A stretch of DNA of 5,041 bases, taken from the NCBI GenBank assembly GCA_024278345.1, contig JAJRTK010000254.1:1-5041 (forward strand), written 5' to 3'. Shown piece by piece: positions 96 through 5,041 of this stretch. Position 1 is the stretch's first letter. Every line of letters begins with the position of its first letter. The DNA is from a bacterium. Its GTDB lineage: Bacteria; CSSED10-310; JAJRTK01. The notes under the pieces were generated by a model. It had not been told where the DNA came from, searched no databases, and saw only the letters and a list, made by a program, of their open reading frames with translations. The position numbers and the translations under genes were made by a program.

Positions 96-140
96 GCTTG
101 CAGTTCCACAGTCCTGGAATTGTCCCGCGTTGCGTGGATG
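96..140 (-). repeat. Repeat module related to the 55-bp tandem unit
   Basis: On the minus strand this reads a GCATCCACG motif, then GCGGGACAATTCCAGGACTG and a few further bases. This resembles the tandem unit at 4608-4702 and the start of the direct repeat at 428-451. It continues without a break into the 1-93 module in the same order as the right block, so 1-140 as a whole is an inverted relative of about 4649-4831. Confidence 0.65.
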
Positions 141-148
141 CCCCAGCC

Positions 149-231
149 CTGGAACCCGGCGGAGTCGGCCTCCGGACCTCCGCTGGGAGCGACGCTCCCA
201 GACACACGCCAGGGAGCCAGCTCCCTTGTAT
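149..231 (+). repeat. Degenerate copy of the hairpin array at 832-928
   Basis: The order of motifs is the same as in 832-928: CCCTGGAACCCGGCGGAG, then CTCCGG, then GGACCTCCGCTGGGAGC, then GCTCCCAGAC, then CGCCAGGGAGC. The first hairpin has lost about 9 bases of one arm. The third keeps its 8-bp stem (CTGGGAGC/GCTCCCAG), but its loop is GAC here and GCT in the other copy. The fourth keeps a stem with one mismatch. Preserved stems with changed loops suggest that the folded form matters or is maintained by the copying mechanism. That explanation is an inference. Confidence 0.75.
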
Positions 232-427
232 CTTGTCCTATGACGAACCCGAACAGTTGCCTGAGCCGCCTGGCGAGCTCGCATCAACAAGGCTGGGAGG
301 TCCTCCGCAAGACCAAGCTTGGGCCTGGATCGTGGGCGTTGGCCAGCAGGCCGACGACCAACGAGCCAGGCTACGGCTCCGCCCTCCGCGGTCAGGAGGA
401 GTTAAAATGGGAGGAAAGATTTTTTGG
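232..427. other. Repeat-free spacer with coding-like composition
   Basis: This stretch shows no strong internal match to the other repeats. From an ATG at 240 one plus-strand frame is open through the segment, and most of its third codon positions are G or C, as in the two real genes here. The minus strand has a similar bias but is broken by a stop. There is no ribosome binding site before 240. The frame continues into the repeat at 428, and I recognise no domain in the translation. A separate AGGAGGA (394-400) stands 6 bases before an ATG at 407, but that frame also runs into repeat sequence. It may be a gene remnant or part of a longer repeat. Confidence 0.3.
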
Positions 428-664
428 GGTATCCACGCAAAGCGGGACAATGGGTCGGGGGGAAAAACTTGGCATCGGGCAGCGCCGCGCTCCGCTCGCC
501 GGGTCACGCCTCGCGTGACCCGGCGAGCGTCCGGAAATTGTAGCGTGCGGGCCTCCCGGCCCGTGCGCATCGGACTTCGCCCTGCACCCACCAGGGAGCG
601 TGCTCATCTTCCCGTTGCAACGAAGGGCAACGGGATCCCAGCCCACGTTTTTGTACGCTACGCG
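428..664 (+). repeat. Long repeat module, direct copy of about 4649-4909
   Basis: Shared landmarks occur in the same order and orientation in both copies. They are ATCCACG(C/T)AAAGCGGGA, a CTCGC(C/G)GGGTCACG element, GCCCTGCACCCACCAGGGAG, a CCCGTTGCAACGAAGGGCAA hairpin and CCCAGCCCACGTT(T/C)TTGTACGCT. The hairpin at 610-635 has a 9-bp stem (TCCCGTTGC/GCAACGGGA). A further hairpin lies at 548-563 (CGGGCC/GGCCCG). The middle of the two copies has diverged strongly, while the 3' part (about 583-664) is nearly identical. An open frame runs through the module on each strand, but I regard these as by-products of GC-rich repeats. Confidence 0.75.
493..529. repeat. Perfect 17-bp-stem hairpin with a 3-base loop
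   Basis: The left arm is CGCTCGCCGGGTCACGC (493-509), the loop is CTC (510-512), and the right arm (513-529) is the exact reverse complement. It is the longest perfect stem in the window. The corresponding place in the right block is much weaker, a 6-bp stem at 4727-4732/4737-4742. No T tract follows it, so it does not look like an intrinsic terminator. Confidence 0.85.
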
Positions 665-703: not shown

Positions 704-785
704 CATGATCGCGGCGACCACACCCCGGAAGATGAAAGTGAATGGCGCCGAACGCCATAACCACGCCGTCGAAGATGGATTTAAC
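704..785 (+). repeat. 82-bp repeat module, inverted copy of 4960-5041
   Basis: Aligned to the reverse complement of 4960-5041, this segment has no gaps and about 7 differences in 82 positions (about 91 percent identity by eye). The core is CCACACCCCGGAAGATGAAA followed later by CCACGCCGTCGAAGATGGAT. Several frames are open through it on both strands. In one minus-strand frame about four of the seven differences fall at third codon positions, which hints at a coding past without proving it. No known protein is recognised. Confidence 0.85.
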
Positions 786-791
786 GGCCTT

Positions 792-980
792 GTCCATCGT
801 TTCGGCCACGCCGGTACATCCGGGCGCTAGCCCAGGGCCTCCGGCCCTGGAACCCGGCGGAGGCTCCGCCTCCGGACCTCCGCTGGGAGCGCTGCTCCCA
901 GACCCACGCCAGGGAGCGTGCTCCCTGGACCCACATTTATGTACGACGCTCCGCGTCGTACGGTGGCCGAAACGATGGAC
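792..980. repeat. 18-bp inverted repeats (792-809 and 963-980) enclosing the hairpin array
   Basis: The string GTGGCCGAAACGATGGAC at 963-980 is the exact reverse complement of 792-809. Similarity continues inward on the array side (GTAC and GG motifs) and outward (GCCG(A)TTTAA, read away from the array). The pair brackets the hairpin run at 832-961 like the termini of a small element. A third, 13-base copy of the core, CCATCGTTTCGGC, lies at 1252-1264 in the same orientation as the left arm. Confidence 0.75.
832..961 (+). repeat. Array of five consecutive short-loop hairpins
   Basis: Five perfect inverted repeats follow one another. CCAGGGCC-TCC-GGCCCTGG is at 832-850. CGGAGGC-TCC-GCCTCCG is at 858-874. 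CTGGGAGC-GCT-GCTCCCAG is at 883-901. CCAGGGAGC-GT-GCTCCCTGG is at 909-928. GTACGACGC-TCC-GCGTCGTAC is at 941-961. Stems are 7 to 9 bp and loops 2 or 3 bases, with spacers of 7 to 12 bases. No terminator-type T tract follows. This layout resembles clustered REP or BIME-type elements, but I do not recognise a named family and no transposase is present in the window. Confidence 0.9.
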
Positions 981-987
981 GGAGCCG

Positions 988-1011
988 ATTTAACCATGTA
1001 CTTTCATGGTA
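988..1011 (+). repeat. Small hairpin module, inverted copy of 4943-4966
   Basis: The core ACCATG-TACTTT-CATGGT (993-1010) can form a 6-bp stem. The 24 bases match the reverse complement of 4943-4966 at 23 positions. In the right block this module abuts the 82-bp module; here it abuts the right arm of the inverted repeat instead, so modules have been recombined in different orders. Confidence 0.75.
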
Positions 1012-1013
1012 CG

Positions 1014-1424
1014 TGGATGCCCGATTTTTGCAGGCTCCAAAGTGGTTTCACGGAACTTTTGGCGCTCTTTTTGCGACCAATACTCGGATCGCGGTGGTGC
1101 TCCAGCCCTAGGGCAATGGAGCGAAGGCGGCGATAATGGCGAGCAGCGGGCGCCGGATGGCGACCGATGGGAGCGGAACGCAAGACGAAGAAGACAAAGG
1201 GTTTGCCGAGAACCCGCCCTAAAAGAAGAGCACGACCCAAATCGCGGGGCGCCATCGTTTCGGCTAGAGGCGGCGTGAGAAGTTCGGTGGTAAAGTGGCC
1301 AAGGATGACCATAAAGCCCGAATCAACAGTGTGCTACTGAACACCGGAACAGACTAAAGGATCCAAGCCTCCCCCTTTGGCCGGTCTATTTTCTGATTCC
1401 ATGGACGATCTCCGCAGGAAAACC
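1014..1424. other. Region upstream of the protease gene, no gene recognised
   Basis: The repeat modules thin out after about 1015, leaving only the 13-base core at 1252-1264. A minus-strand frame is open over about 1004-1312, but it lacks a ribosome binding site and a recognisable domain. Another minus-strand frame reads short hydrophobic stretches broken by several stops, which could be an eroded gene. No convincing -35/-10 pair is visible before 1425. An AAAGGA at 1356-1361 resembles a ribosome binding site but is about 15 bases from the nearest in-frame TTG (1377), which is too far. Confidence 0.4.
1416..1420 (+). promoter_or_regulatory. Ribosome binding site for the protease gene
   Basis: AGGAA lies 4 bases before the ATG at 1425. 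The alternative in-frame starts, ATG 1401 and TTG 1377, have no comparable motif at a normal distance. This site therefore decides the chosen start. Confidence 0.55.
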
Positions 1425-3035
1425 ATGACTCTCACCGCACGACTCATCGTTGCCCTACTCCTGCCAAACCTTGCGGCAGTGGCGCAGCCATGGCCATCAA
1501 GCTCCCCGCGGCGAATTGAGGCGAAGTGGAACGTCTATGTCTACATGAATGGCCTTCCAGACTTGGAGCGCTTTGCCCTCAGAGACATCGAAGAGATGAA
1601 ACGAGCGGGCGGAAGTGACGACGTCAACCTTTTCGTCCAGATTGCCATCCCAGACCATCCCGTCCGACGTTACCGGATTGAAGGCCATGAGGCACGGTTG
1701 ATCTCGGAGCTTGGGCGAATCAACCCATTCGATTTCGAGAACCTGGCGGATTTCGTCATCGAATCGAATCAGGTGGCGGAAGCAGGGCGCCACTGTGTGG
1801 TCATTTGGGGACATGGGTCAGGTTTGCCACAGATCCCCGTGGCATCCAGGGGGGCGCCCTTCAACCCGAGTCCAAGAGGATTTCCACTTCGGCGGCTCTC
1901 CAGGGCTGCCGAGAGGATCACCCGCCGCCTGGGCGGTCCCGTGGACATCTGGGGACATGACAGTTGCCTCATGCAGCGGCTGGAAGTCGGGTATGACCTT
2001 CGGAACGCGGGCCGATTCATGGTGGGCCCGGAGAGCAATCTCGACGGCGATGGATGGGATTACCGGGAGCTTATGAATCTCCTGACCGAAGACCCGGGCC
2101 TGGAACCGTTCGAGCTGGCACAATCCATGGCGCGGCTCATTTTCGAGAACAGCCGCGCCTCTCTGGCGGGAAGCGGGGAAAAATCGGGGCCGGTGACTTT
2201 CGAAACGCCGATTGTGTCCGCGGTCGATCTTTCCAAGGTTGACGCCCTGGCACAAGCTCTGGACCGGCTGTCAATCGAGCTGAGCCATTTTGCGTCAGAT
2301 CCCGGACGAATGGCAGCTCTTGTGACGGCCCACTATGCGGCGCGGCGCTACAGTTCCGGGGCAACAGCCGCCAGCTCCTACGTCGATCTCGCGGATCTTG
2401 CCGCCCAGTTCACGGGCGCTGGCATGCCGCCCGCCTTGAGGCGCTCGGCGCGGGGGGTCCAACGAGCCGTCGAAGCCGCGGTCATCACTCGCTACGGAGA
2501 TGATCGGAGCCGCGGTATCTCCATCTATCACCAGGCCCACTCACTCCTGCCGACTGGCTACAGAGCACGGGGACTCGCTCGGGACACCCGGTGGGACGAA
2601 TATCTTTCGCTCGAACTGTCTGCGAATCTCCCCCCCCGCGCCCCTCCACTTGCGGGGAGGGAAAGCATCTATGAATCCTACGTGGACACGCCCATCCCCG
2701 ACGACGATTTCCAGGGGATTTCTGACAGTATCGAGGTCCCCTTCTCCGGCGCCGTCTCTTCGGTGCGGCTGTTCATCGACCTGCAGCACTCCTACTTGGG
2801 CGACCTGGAGATCCGCCTGCGCTCTCCCGGCGGCAGGAAGGTGACTCTTTTCAGCCGAACCGGAGGCAACGGGCAAGGCATCCACGGCTGGATCGACACC
2901 GCTCGTCTTGCCAAACCCTTCCGTGACGAGGAAGCCAAGGGCGAATGGCGTCTTGAAGTGGCGGATCTCGAGTCTTCGGATTCGGGGATTTGGGTGAGTT
3001 GGAAACTGGAGATCAGCACGGCCATGAACGAATGA
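1425..3035 (+). CDS. Secreted clostripain-family (C11) cysteine protease with C-terminal P-domain
   Basis: The product is a predicted exported endopeptidase of 536 residues. Residues 1-20 form a signal peptide with hydrophobic core LIVALLLPNLAAV and an AVA|Q cleavage site; there is no lipobox. The C11 fold opens with WNVYVYMNGLPDLE (35-48). The catalytic His is H130 in IWGHGSG and the catalytic Cys is C181 in GHDSCLM. They are followed by the family motif GPESNLDGDGWDY (201-213), then SYVDLADL (318-325) and GISIYHQ (364-370). D179, two residues before the Cys, corresponds to the S1-pocket Asp of characterised C11 enzymes, so cleavage after Arg or Lys is likely. The Arg-rich segment 142-168 between His and Cys could be a self-processing site, as C11 enzymes mature by internal cleavage; this is an inference. 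Residues about 413-530 are a proprotein-convertase P-domain (PIPDDDFQGISDSIEV, SYLGDLEIRLRSPGG, a GEWRLEVAD strand, SWKLEI at the end). An earlier start at 1401 would add an RRK-containing n-region and remains possible. The gene is intact and lies 145 bases before hutI on the same strand. Confidence 0.9.
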   Translation: MTLTARLIVALLLPNLAAVAQPWPSSSPRRIEAKWNVYVYMNGLPDLERFALRDIEEMKRAGGSDDVNLFVQIAIPDHPVRRYRIEGHEARLISELGRINPFDFENLADFVIESNQVAEAGRHCVVIWGHGSGLPQIPVASRGAPFNPSPRGFPLRRLSRAAERITRRLGGPVDIWGHDSCLMQRLEVGYDLRNAGRFMVGPESNLDGDGWDYRELMNLLTEDPGLEPFELAQSMARLIFENSRASLAGSGEKSGPVTFETPIVSAVDLSKVDALAQALDRLSIELSHFASDPGRMAALVTAHYAARRYSSGATAASSYVDLADLAAQFTGAGMPPALRRSARGVQRAVEAAVITRYGDDRSRGISIYHQAHSLLPTGYRARGLARDTRWDEYLSLELSANLPPRAPPLAGRESIYESYVDTPIPDDDFQGISDSIEVPFSGAVSSVRLFIDLQHSYLGDLEIRLRSPGGRKVTLFSRTGGNGQGIHGWIDTARLAKPFRDEEAKGEWRLEVADLESSDSGIWVSWKLEISTAMNE

Positions 3036-3180: not shown

Positions 3181-4476
3181 ATGAGCACCCCAAAAGACTC
3201 GGCTGATTCTGAAAAAACTGTGCTGGCTGATCTCGTCGTAGAGGATATCGGAGAGCTGATCAGTCTGGCACCGCCCCTCCCCATGTGGGAGCCCCCAGGC
3301 AGATCTCCCTGGCCGCCTCGCCTTTCCGACGCCGCGGTGGCCTCGTACGATGGGCGGATCGTCTGGTTGGGATCCGCATGGGAGCTGAAGCGGTCGGTCC
3401 GCCTCACTCCCGATGCAACGCGGCTTTCCGCCGCAGGCGGGCTGGTGACGCCCGGCTTTGTGGATAGCCATACCCACCTTGTCTTTGCCGGCAGCCGCGC
3501 CGACGAATTCTTCCTTCGCCATCGGGGGATCCCCTACAGGGAGATCGCCAGGGCTGGCGGAGGCATCCTTCGAACGATGCGGGAGACTCGAAACGCCTCC
3601 CCAGACGCCCTCTTCGAGAGCGCTGCGAGGCGAATTGAGACCATGCTCCGTTGGGGCACCACCACCGCGGAGATCAAAAGTGGCTACGGACTCAACCTCC
3701 AAAGCGAGTTGAAACTGCTGGAGGTGGCGCGAAGACTTGGCCAAGAAACCCCCATGGACGTGGTGACGACCTTCCTTGGAGCCCACGTCGTGCCCCCTGA
3801 TTCCAATCCAAAAAATTACTTGAAAACCGTCACGGAAGTCATGATTCCAATGGTGGCGGAACGCGGGCTAGCCCGGTTCTGTGATGTCTTCTGCGAAACC
3901 GGTGTATTCGGCCTGGACGAAGCGAGACAAGTTCTGGAAGCCGGCGAGAAATTCGGGTTGCGCCCCAAGGTCCACGCTGAACAGTTGACCCGGCTTGGCG
4001 GAGCAAGGCTCGCCGCGGAACTGGGTGCCACAAGCGCCGATCACCTGGAACACGCATCCGCCGAAGATCTGGAGGCCATGGCCAGGGCTGGCGTCGTGGG
4101 AGGGCTGCTCCCGGGCGCCTCGCTATTCCTGGGATCAGAGGAGTACGCACCCCTTGCCCGAATGCGCCGCGCCGACCTGGAAGTCGCCCTGGCCACGGAT
4201 TGCAACCCGGGCACCTGCATGACGGAGGTCATGCCACCCATCCTCTTCCTGGCAGTGGTGAAGTTGGGAATGACCCCGGGGGAAGCTCTTCGCGCCGCCT
4301 GCCTGGGAGGAGCCAAATCGCTGGACATGGAGAATCAGATCGGCAGCCTGGCCCCGGGAAAACAGATGGACCTCGCTGTTTTCGACGTTCCAAACCTCGA
4401 AGAACTCTTCTATCACTTTGGAGTCAACCACCTTCAATGCGTCATCAAGAAGGGGATTCCCGTGGCAATCCCATGA
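3181..4476 (+). CDS. hutI: Imidazolonepropionase (histidine degradation)
   Basis: This cytoplasmic amidohydrolase opens 4-imidazolone-5-propanoate to N-formimino-L-glutamate, the third step of histidine catabolism (EC 3.5.2.7). The 431-residue length is slightly above the usual 400 to 420, owing to a polar N-terminus and a Pro-rich segment near residues 31-47. Metal ligands are H97 and H99 (PGFVDSHTHLVFAG), H265 (KVHAEQL) and D340 (ALATDCNPGTC). Other signature motifs are GGGILRTMRETR, TTTAEIKSGYGL with substrate-side Y169, TFLGAHVVPP, RFCDVFCETGVF and SADHLEH (H288). The HAEQ form, with Gln where B. subtilis HutI has Glu, resembles the HADQ of the Agrobacterium-type enzyme as I recall it, and does not suggest loss of function. 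The C-terminus has the usual GSLAPGKQMDLAVFD strand region. No hutH, hutU or formiminoglutamate-degrading gene is in the window. It may share a transcript with the protease, or use its own promoter near the 3124 palindrome. Confidence 0.95.
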   Translation: MSTPKDSADSEKTVLADLVVEDIGELISLAPPLPMWEPPGRSPWPPRLSDAAVASYDGRIVWLGSAWELKRSVRLTPDATRLSAAGGLVTPGFVDSHTHLVFAGSRADEFFLRHRGIPYREIARAGGGILRTMRETRNASPDALFESAARRIETMLRWGTTTAEIKSGYGLNLQSELKLLEVARRLGQETPMDVVTTFLGAHVVPPDSNPKNYLKTVTEVMIPMVAERGLARFCDVFCETGVFGLDEARQVLEAGEKFGLRPKVHAEQLTRLGGARLAAELGATSADHLEHASAEDLEAMARAGVVGGLLPGASLFLGSEEYAPLARMRRADLEVALATDCNPGTCMTEVMPPILFLAVVKLGMTPGEALRAACLGGAKSLDMENQIGSLAPGKQMDLAVFDVPNLEELFYHFGVNHLQCVIKKGIPVAIP

Positions 4477-4532: not shown

Positions 4533-4607
4533 CACTCATGGAGACCAATCGAACCACCCCAGAAGATGAAAGACAAAAAGCTGCTTGACGTGTACGTTCA
4601 CGGTAAG

Positions 4608-4702
4608 GCGGGACATTTCAAGGATTGTGGAATTGTGGGCGTCCGGGGGCCATCCACGTAAAGCGGGATGCTTCAAGGATTGTGGAATTGTGGGTGTCCG
4701 GG
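4608..4702 (+). repeat. 55-bp tandem repeat, about 1.7 units
   Basis: Unit one is 4608-4662 and unit two begins at 4663. Both read GCGGGA, two or three variable bases, TTCAAGGATTGTGGAATTG, then TGGG(C/T)GTCCGGG. Copy differences are few. A diverged inverted relative lies at 96-128, and the 3' part of unit one, ATCCACGTAAA, recurs before the direct repeat at 428. Confidence 0.85.
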
Positions 4703-4942: not shown

Positions 4943-5041
4943 TACCATGAAAGTACATGGTTGAATCCATCTTCGACGGCGTGGTCATGGCGCTCCGCGC
5001 CTTCCACTTTCATCTTCCGGGGTGTGGTCGCCGGGATCATG
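4943..5041 (-). repeat. Hairpin module plus 82-bp module, inverted copies of 988-1011 and 704-785
   Basis: Positions 4943-4966 match the reverse complement of 988-1011 at 23 of 24 bases. Positions 4960-5041 match the reverse complement of 704-785 at about 75 of 82 bases without gaps. Here the two modules are adjacent and overlap by a few bases, whereas on the left they are separated by the hairpin array. The window ends inside the repeat, so its outer limit is unknown. Confidence 0.8.

Follow-up and report, generated by a model that had tools for sequence, protein, structure and literature searches.

A high-copy, GC-rich family of very probable non-autonomous transposons (MITEs) with internal hairpins in a scarcely studied candidate phylum

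Bacterial MITEs are short, non-coding and typically AT-rich elements with terminal inverted repeats, target duplications, a high copy number and stable predicted stem-loops, and they insert into one another (PMC10969869). BOX, RUP and SPRITE of Streptococcus pneumoniae are small elements which cluster and insert into one another, and SPRITE carries terminator-like hairpins (PMC10969869). The stretch of DNA analyzed here (the window, 5,041 nt) makes up all of contig C178, which belongs to the draft genome (6.06 Mb, 550 contigs) of an uncultured bacterium. Based on the features described below, positions 786-986 of the window very probably represent a single MITE, a transposon of the non-autonomous type. 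This GC-rich MITE family is new, and the kind of genome parasite that it represents is already known. The coordinates of the element, its hairpins, related sequences and the neighboring genes are collected in Table 1.

Table 1. Features of the window and complete copies of a second element family in the same genome (window positions unless a locus is named).
Feature	Position	Strand	Description
Complete MITE	786-986	+	201 bp; end points shared by the copies, target duplication directly next to each end
Left terminal inverted repeat	786-809	+	GGCCTTGTCCATCGTTTCGGCCAC; pairs with right end across aligned copies
Right terminal inverted repeat	963-986	-	GGCTCCGTCCATCGTTTCGGCCAC, inward reading; pairs with left end
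Left target duplication	778-785	.	GATTTAAC; 8 bp, exact
Right target duplication	987-994	.	GATTTAAC; 8 bp, exact
Target, left part of another repeat interrupted by the MITE	704-785	+	Inverted copy at 4960-5041; joined flanks match L017
Target, continuation of this repeat on the right	995-1021	+	Joined flanks match uninterrupted copy in L017
Hairpin H1	832-850	+	832-839/843-850; 8-bp stem, loop 3
Hairpin H2	858-874	+	858-864/868-874; 7-bp stem, loop 3
Hairpin H3	883-901	+	883-890/894-901; 8-bp stem, loop 3
Hairpin H4	909-928	+	909-917/920-928; 9-bp stem, loop 2
Hairpin H5	941-961	+	941-949/953-961; 9-bp stem, loop 3
Second, degraded copy of hairpin core (H1 to H4)	143-226	+	Direct repeats D2, D9; 89.5% identity over 86 bp
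Second-family end GGGYATCCACGCAARGCGGGACA	427-449	+	
Second-family end GGGYATCCACGCAARGCGGGACA	4648-4670	+	
Second-family end GGGYATCCACGCAARGCGGGACA	121-143	-	
Second-family complete copy	L012:2815-3033		8-bp target duplication, own hairpin chain
Second-family complete copy	L178:1000-1279		8-bp target duplication, own hairpin chain
Second-family complete copy	L185:1204-1469		8-bp target duplication, own hairpin chain
Clostripain-family (C11) peptidase gene	1377-3035		C-terminal proprotein convertase P-domain
hutI, imidazolonepropionase	3181-4476		TIGR01224, 428 bits (cut-off 298)

Similarity among the aligned copies stopped at 786 and 986. The original prediction, made from the letters of the window, had described exact 18-bp inverted repeats (792-809 and 963-980) around an element of about 190 bp; the repeats were confirmed and proved to be longer, with 24 bp and 3 mismatches in the window copy, and the size had to be corrected to 201 bp. 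In 20 aligned copies, 22 of the 24 end positions were paired in at least 85% of the copies, and 95% of the cells were paired overall. The repeat that served as target recurs in inverted orientation at the other end of the window (4943-5041). When the element and one duplication were taken out of the window copy, the sequence matched the uninterrupted copy in L017, which contains GATTTAAC once and is the kind of locus without the element that the prediction had proposed to look for.

Copies in the genome were read locus by locus, and 24 of those read were full-length (174-235 bp). With up to 3 mismatches, ends of the GGCCTYGGTCATSGTWYCGGCCA type were found 160 times per strand (control 0 and 1) and ends of the GTCCATCGTTTCGGCCAC type 62 and 59 times per strand (control 5 and 3), the two counts overlapping; judged from these end matches, the genome may hold roughly 160 copies or more. 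Three main end types (GTCCATCGTTTCGGCCAC, GGTCATCGTTTCGGCCAC and GGTCATGGTACCGGCCAC) were distinguished, the two arms of one copy mostly agreed, and six pairs of the end helix (helix 1) showed changes on both sides. A longer left end was observed in a few copies (L013, L018), and in L004 an additional hairpin segment was spliced into H4.

Perfect target duplications of 8-9 bp, every one different, were found in 14 of the 24 full-length copies: L001 GATTTAAC, L003 TTCAACAAC, L004 GGTTGGGAC, L008 ACCGAGCCC, L012 GTTGAGTT, L013 TGAGTTTG, L015 TTTCTACTC, L017 CTCGCTAG, L018 GAATCCTG, L023 CAGAAAAC, L025 CAGGTTTG, L028 GAAGGATC, L044 CAAGAAGTA and L199 GTTCAAGCG. The other 10 were without a perfect duplication, a point against the MITE reading for which age, recombination or misassembly may account. 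At L199:335-535, an ISL3 transposase gene has its DDE domain split by the copy, which is flanked by the duplication GTTCAAGCG; the insertion (201 bp + 9 bp) leaves the ISL3 reading frame open across it, which may be chance. The prediction of a small non-autonomous mobile element was thus borne out by the many copies that the genome search returned, by ends that coincide with the inverted repeats, by the target duplications and by the uninterrupted target.

Many end matches were located 80-190 bp from contig ends, indicating that the assembly (88% complete) breaks inside the MITE, and these repeats help to explain why the genome was assembled into 550 pieces. A draft with so many contigs ending inside the element would also suit spread by recombination, or assembly chimeras, rather than transposition; locus-specific duplications of 8-9 bp together with an exact uninterrupted target are unexpected from assembly collapse or recombination, and we consider this explanation very improbable. 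High copy number, short palindromes and GC richness are also features of palindromes of the REP/BIME type, which a Y1 (TnpA-REP) transposase mobilizes. Y1 elements are not known to produce target duplications or to have long inverted ends, both of which are present in the copies studied here, and such an origin is barely credible. The MITE reading is favored by the absence of a transposase gene, terminal inverted repeats that coincide exactly with the element ends, the 8-9 bp duplications and the many dispersed copies. A length of 201 bp, too short to encode a transposase, was also counted for it, and insertion into older repeats and into one transposase gene was taken as shown support.

According to the proposed mechanism, a DDE transposase supplied in trans would recognize the GGCCTCG...GGCCAC ends and join the element to staggered target cuts, the repair of which would produce the duplication. 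The own genome (G000) and that of a relative in the same phylum (G003) were searched with the transposase profiles PF00872, PF01609, PF01610 and PF12762. No transposase gene was found between such ends in either genome, which counts against the MITE reading, although the own assembly is 88% complete and broken in these repeats; IS256-type genes (PF00872) were not detected. As candidate helpers, DDE_Tnp_1, ISL3 and IS1595 genes or fragments were present in the genome, none of them between MITE ends, and a pattern search for ends with a different next base returned none. The right end of an ISL3 remnant (GGCTCTTCGCCATCTTTGAGGCC) could be aligned, with gaps, to the MITE end at a score that 13 of 2000 shuffles also attained, a weak likeness picked post hoc; the left end of this remnant was absent from the assembly. 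An ISL3-type enzyme as helper transposase is put forward as a weak lead from sequence. Duplications of about 8-9 bp are common to the ISL3, IS1595, IS256, IS1 and ISAs1 families, so the length of the duplication does not decide which family mobilizes the element.

The five perfect hairpins of the original prediction were found where it had placed them, with exact stems of 7-9 bp and loops of 2-3 bases. At most two such hairpins appeared in any of 2000 base shuffles of 786-986, and the folding energy of 775-997 gave z-scores of -10.3 as RNA and -10.2 as DNA. H1 to H4 were found in all subfamilies, and H5 differed or was replaced in others. In a rival reading, these hairpins would be the functional part of a structured non-coding RNA (or an attenuator/terminator cassette), the gene for which was spread by the flanking repeats. 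Such a reading gains from the four helices H1-H4, in which 98.6% of the cells were paired, a one-base slide of the partners abolished pairing and both-sided changes occurred in 23 cells against a shuffle mean of 5.6 (0 of 500 shuffles as high, kinship not removed). Among these changes were a C-G/T-A double change of the loop-closing pair of H1 between subfamilies and three pairs of H3 changed on both sides. Stems were also much less variable than loops (entropy 0.133 vs 0.618), the 2-base loop of H4 having eight different sequences among the copies, and the H5 versions in L007 and L028 resembled intrinsic terminators, which that of the window copy does not.

Against these points, only 4 of the 32 core pairs had a both-sided change, a count reached in 10 of 500 shuffles, and the two parts of the H5 helix were paired in only 52% and 61% of the cells. 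The flanks of the copies were unrelated, the interiors in G003 were wholly different, and the covariance-model search suggested by the prediction gave no Rfam family at the gathering threshold (the highest-scoring match lay below it, with E 0.29 and 17.9 bits vs a cut-off of 42). Moreover, template switching without selection can keep short palindromes perfect, and the loop TCC of H1, which appears reverse-complemented as GGA in one copy, fits this process. Because few pairs carry double changes, the sequences are related, template switching may act and H5 is not conserved, no selected RNA is claimed. A structured RNA or regulatory cassette as the spreading unit is accordingly judged unlikely; some selected role of the hairpins is a real possibility, if still the less probable one. 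With the MITE reading, the GC-rich array would, less surely, be a passenger, tolerated or favored since incoming transcripts fold locally; transcripts may terminate at H5 in some copies, and the perfect stems may be kept by selection, by palindrome-correcting template switching, or by both.

A second family was observed in the own genome, with the ends GGGTATCCACGCAAGGCGGGACA around elements of 219-280 bp and 8-bp target duplications (GGATATCC, GCGGAACG and CCAGTCGG). Part of a second-family element resembles H3-H5 of the window MITE (76% over 80 bp), and this likeness makes it plausible that families which differ in their ends have exchanged hairpin modules. It is rather doubtful that short GC-rich hairpin modules form a common stock in the genome, swapped between MITE families with unrelated ends, the array and not the ends being the selected unit. 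If this were true, the modules could be, for example, RNA-folding or termination units through which an insertion into transcribed DNA would do no harm. Two other repeats were noted in the window. A 45-base unit recurs after 55 bases at 4603-4702 (89% identical) and adjoins a second-family end sequence, and a repeat fragment at 1089-1241 has an 80% match beside an IS1595 transposase remnant (L202:2033-2209) and partial matches in other loci.

MITE-type ends were also found in G003 (14+18, control 1+0), where the interiors between them were unrelated to that of the window MITE; elements of 81 bp and 127 bp had imperfect and perfect target duplications. Paired end matches spaced by 103 and 57 bp were the same in G003 and in Candidatus Schekmanbacteria NC_groundwater_415. 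From these matching loci, and not from a phylogeny, the window is placed in that candidate phylum, its nearest relatives among the genomes compared being of the same phylum only. Among 84,980 species genomes, the exact 19-base end was present in 38 stretches; a close inverted partner accompanied it in two of them, both from Candidatus Schekmanbacteria NC_groundwater_415, and in no other. The 19-base matches in Rhizobiales and others were single and unpaired, probably by coding coincidence, and the 16-mer matches in IMG/VR were single and chance-like; neither group was accepted as copies. With 60 genomes compared, no match to the element was found in any besides G003, plasmids and phages searched with the core gave no match, and a literature search of incomplete coverage found no description of this MITE. 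At three G003 loci (L133:1498-1699, L138:1498-1700 and L148:560-736), ends of the same type were followed by a shared sequence of 180-200 bp, which runs to the contig end in two copies. A larger, autonomous element may begin there, but the sequence showed no conserved reading frame.

The results describe a high-copy MITE family, fully bounded and documented by target duplications and an uninterrupted target, from a scarcely studied candidate phylum, and they show that the same ends enclose unrelated interiors in a genome from another family of this phylum. Since many copies reveal stem changes on both sides and hypervariable loops, the MITE family offers a good natural test of whether selection acts on hairpins in MITEs or replication errors maintain them. 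The window MITE is like the described bacterial MITEs in size, ends, duplications, copy number, stem-loops and mutual insertion, but those are typically AT-rich, whereas its GC content is 70% (core 76%, window genes 61%), and no parental insertion sequence was found for it in G000 and G003. Insertion sequences of the ISL3 family make 8-bp target duplications, and as a possible parent this family has the 8-bp duplications in common with the window MITE, the likeness of the ends being gapped, weak and picked post hoc. BOX elements are modular. The likeness to BOX, RUP and SPRITE lies in small size, clustering and mutual insertion, a comparison by features that implies no sequence relation, and the window MITE differs from them by its long inverted ends, its 8-9 bp duplications and the five separate short hairpins inside.
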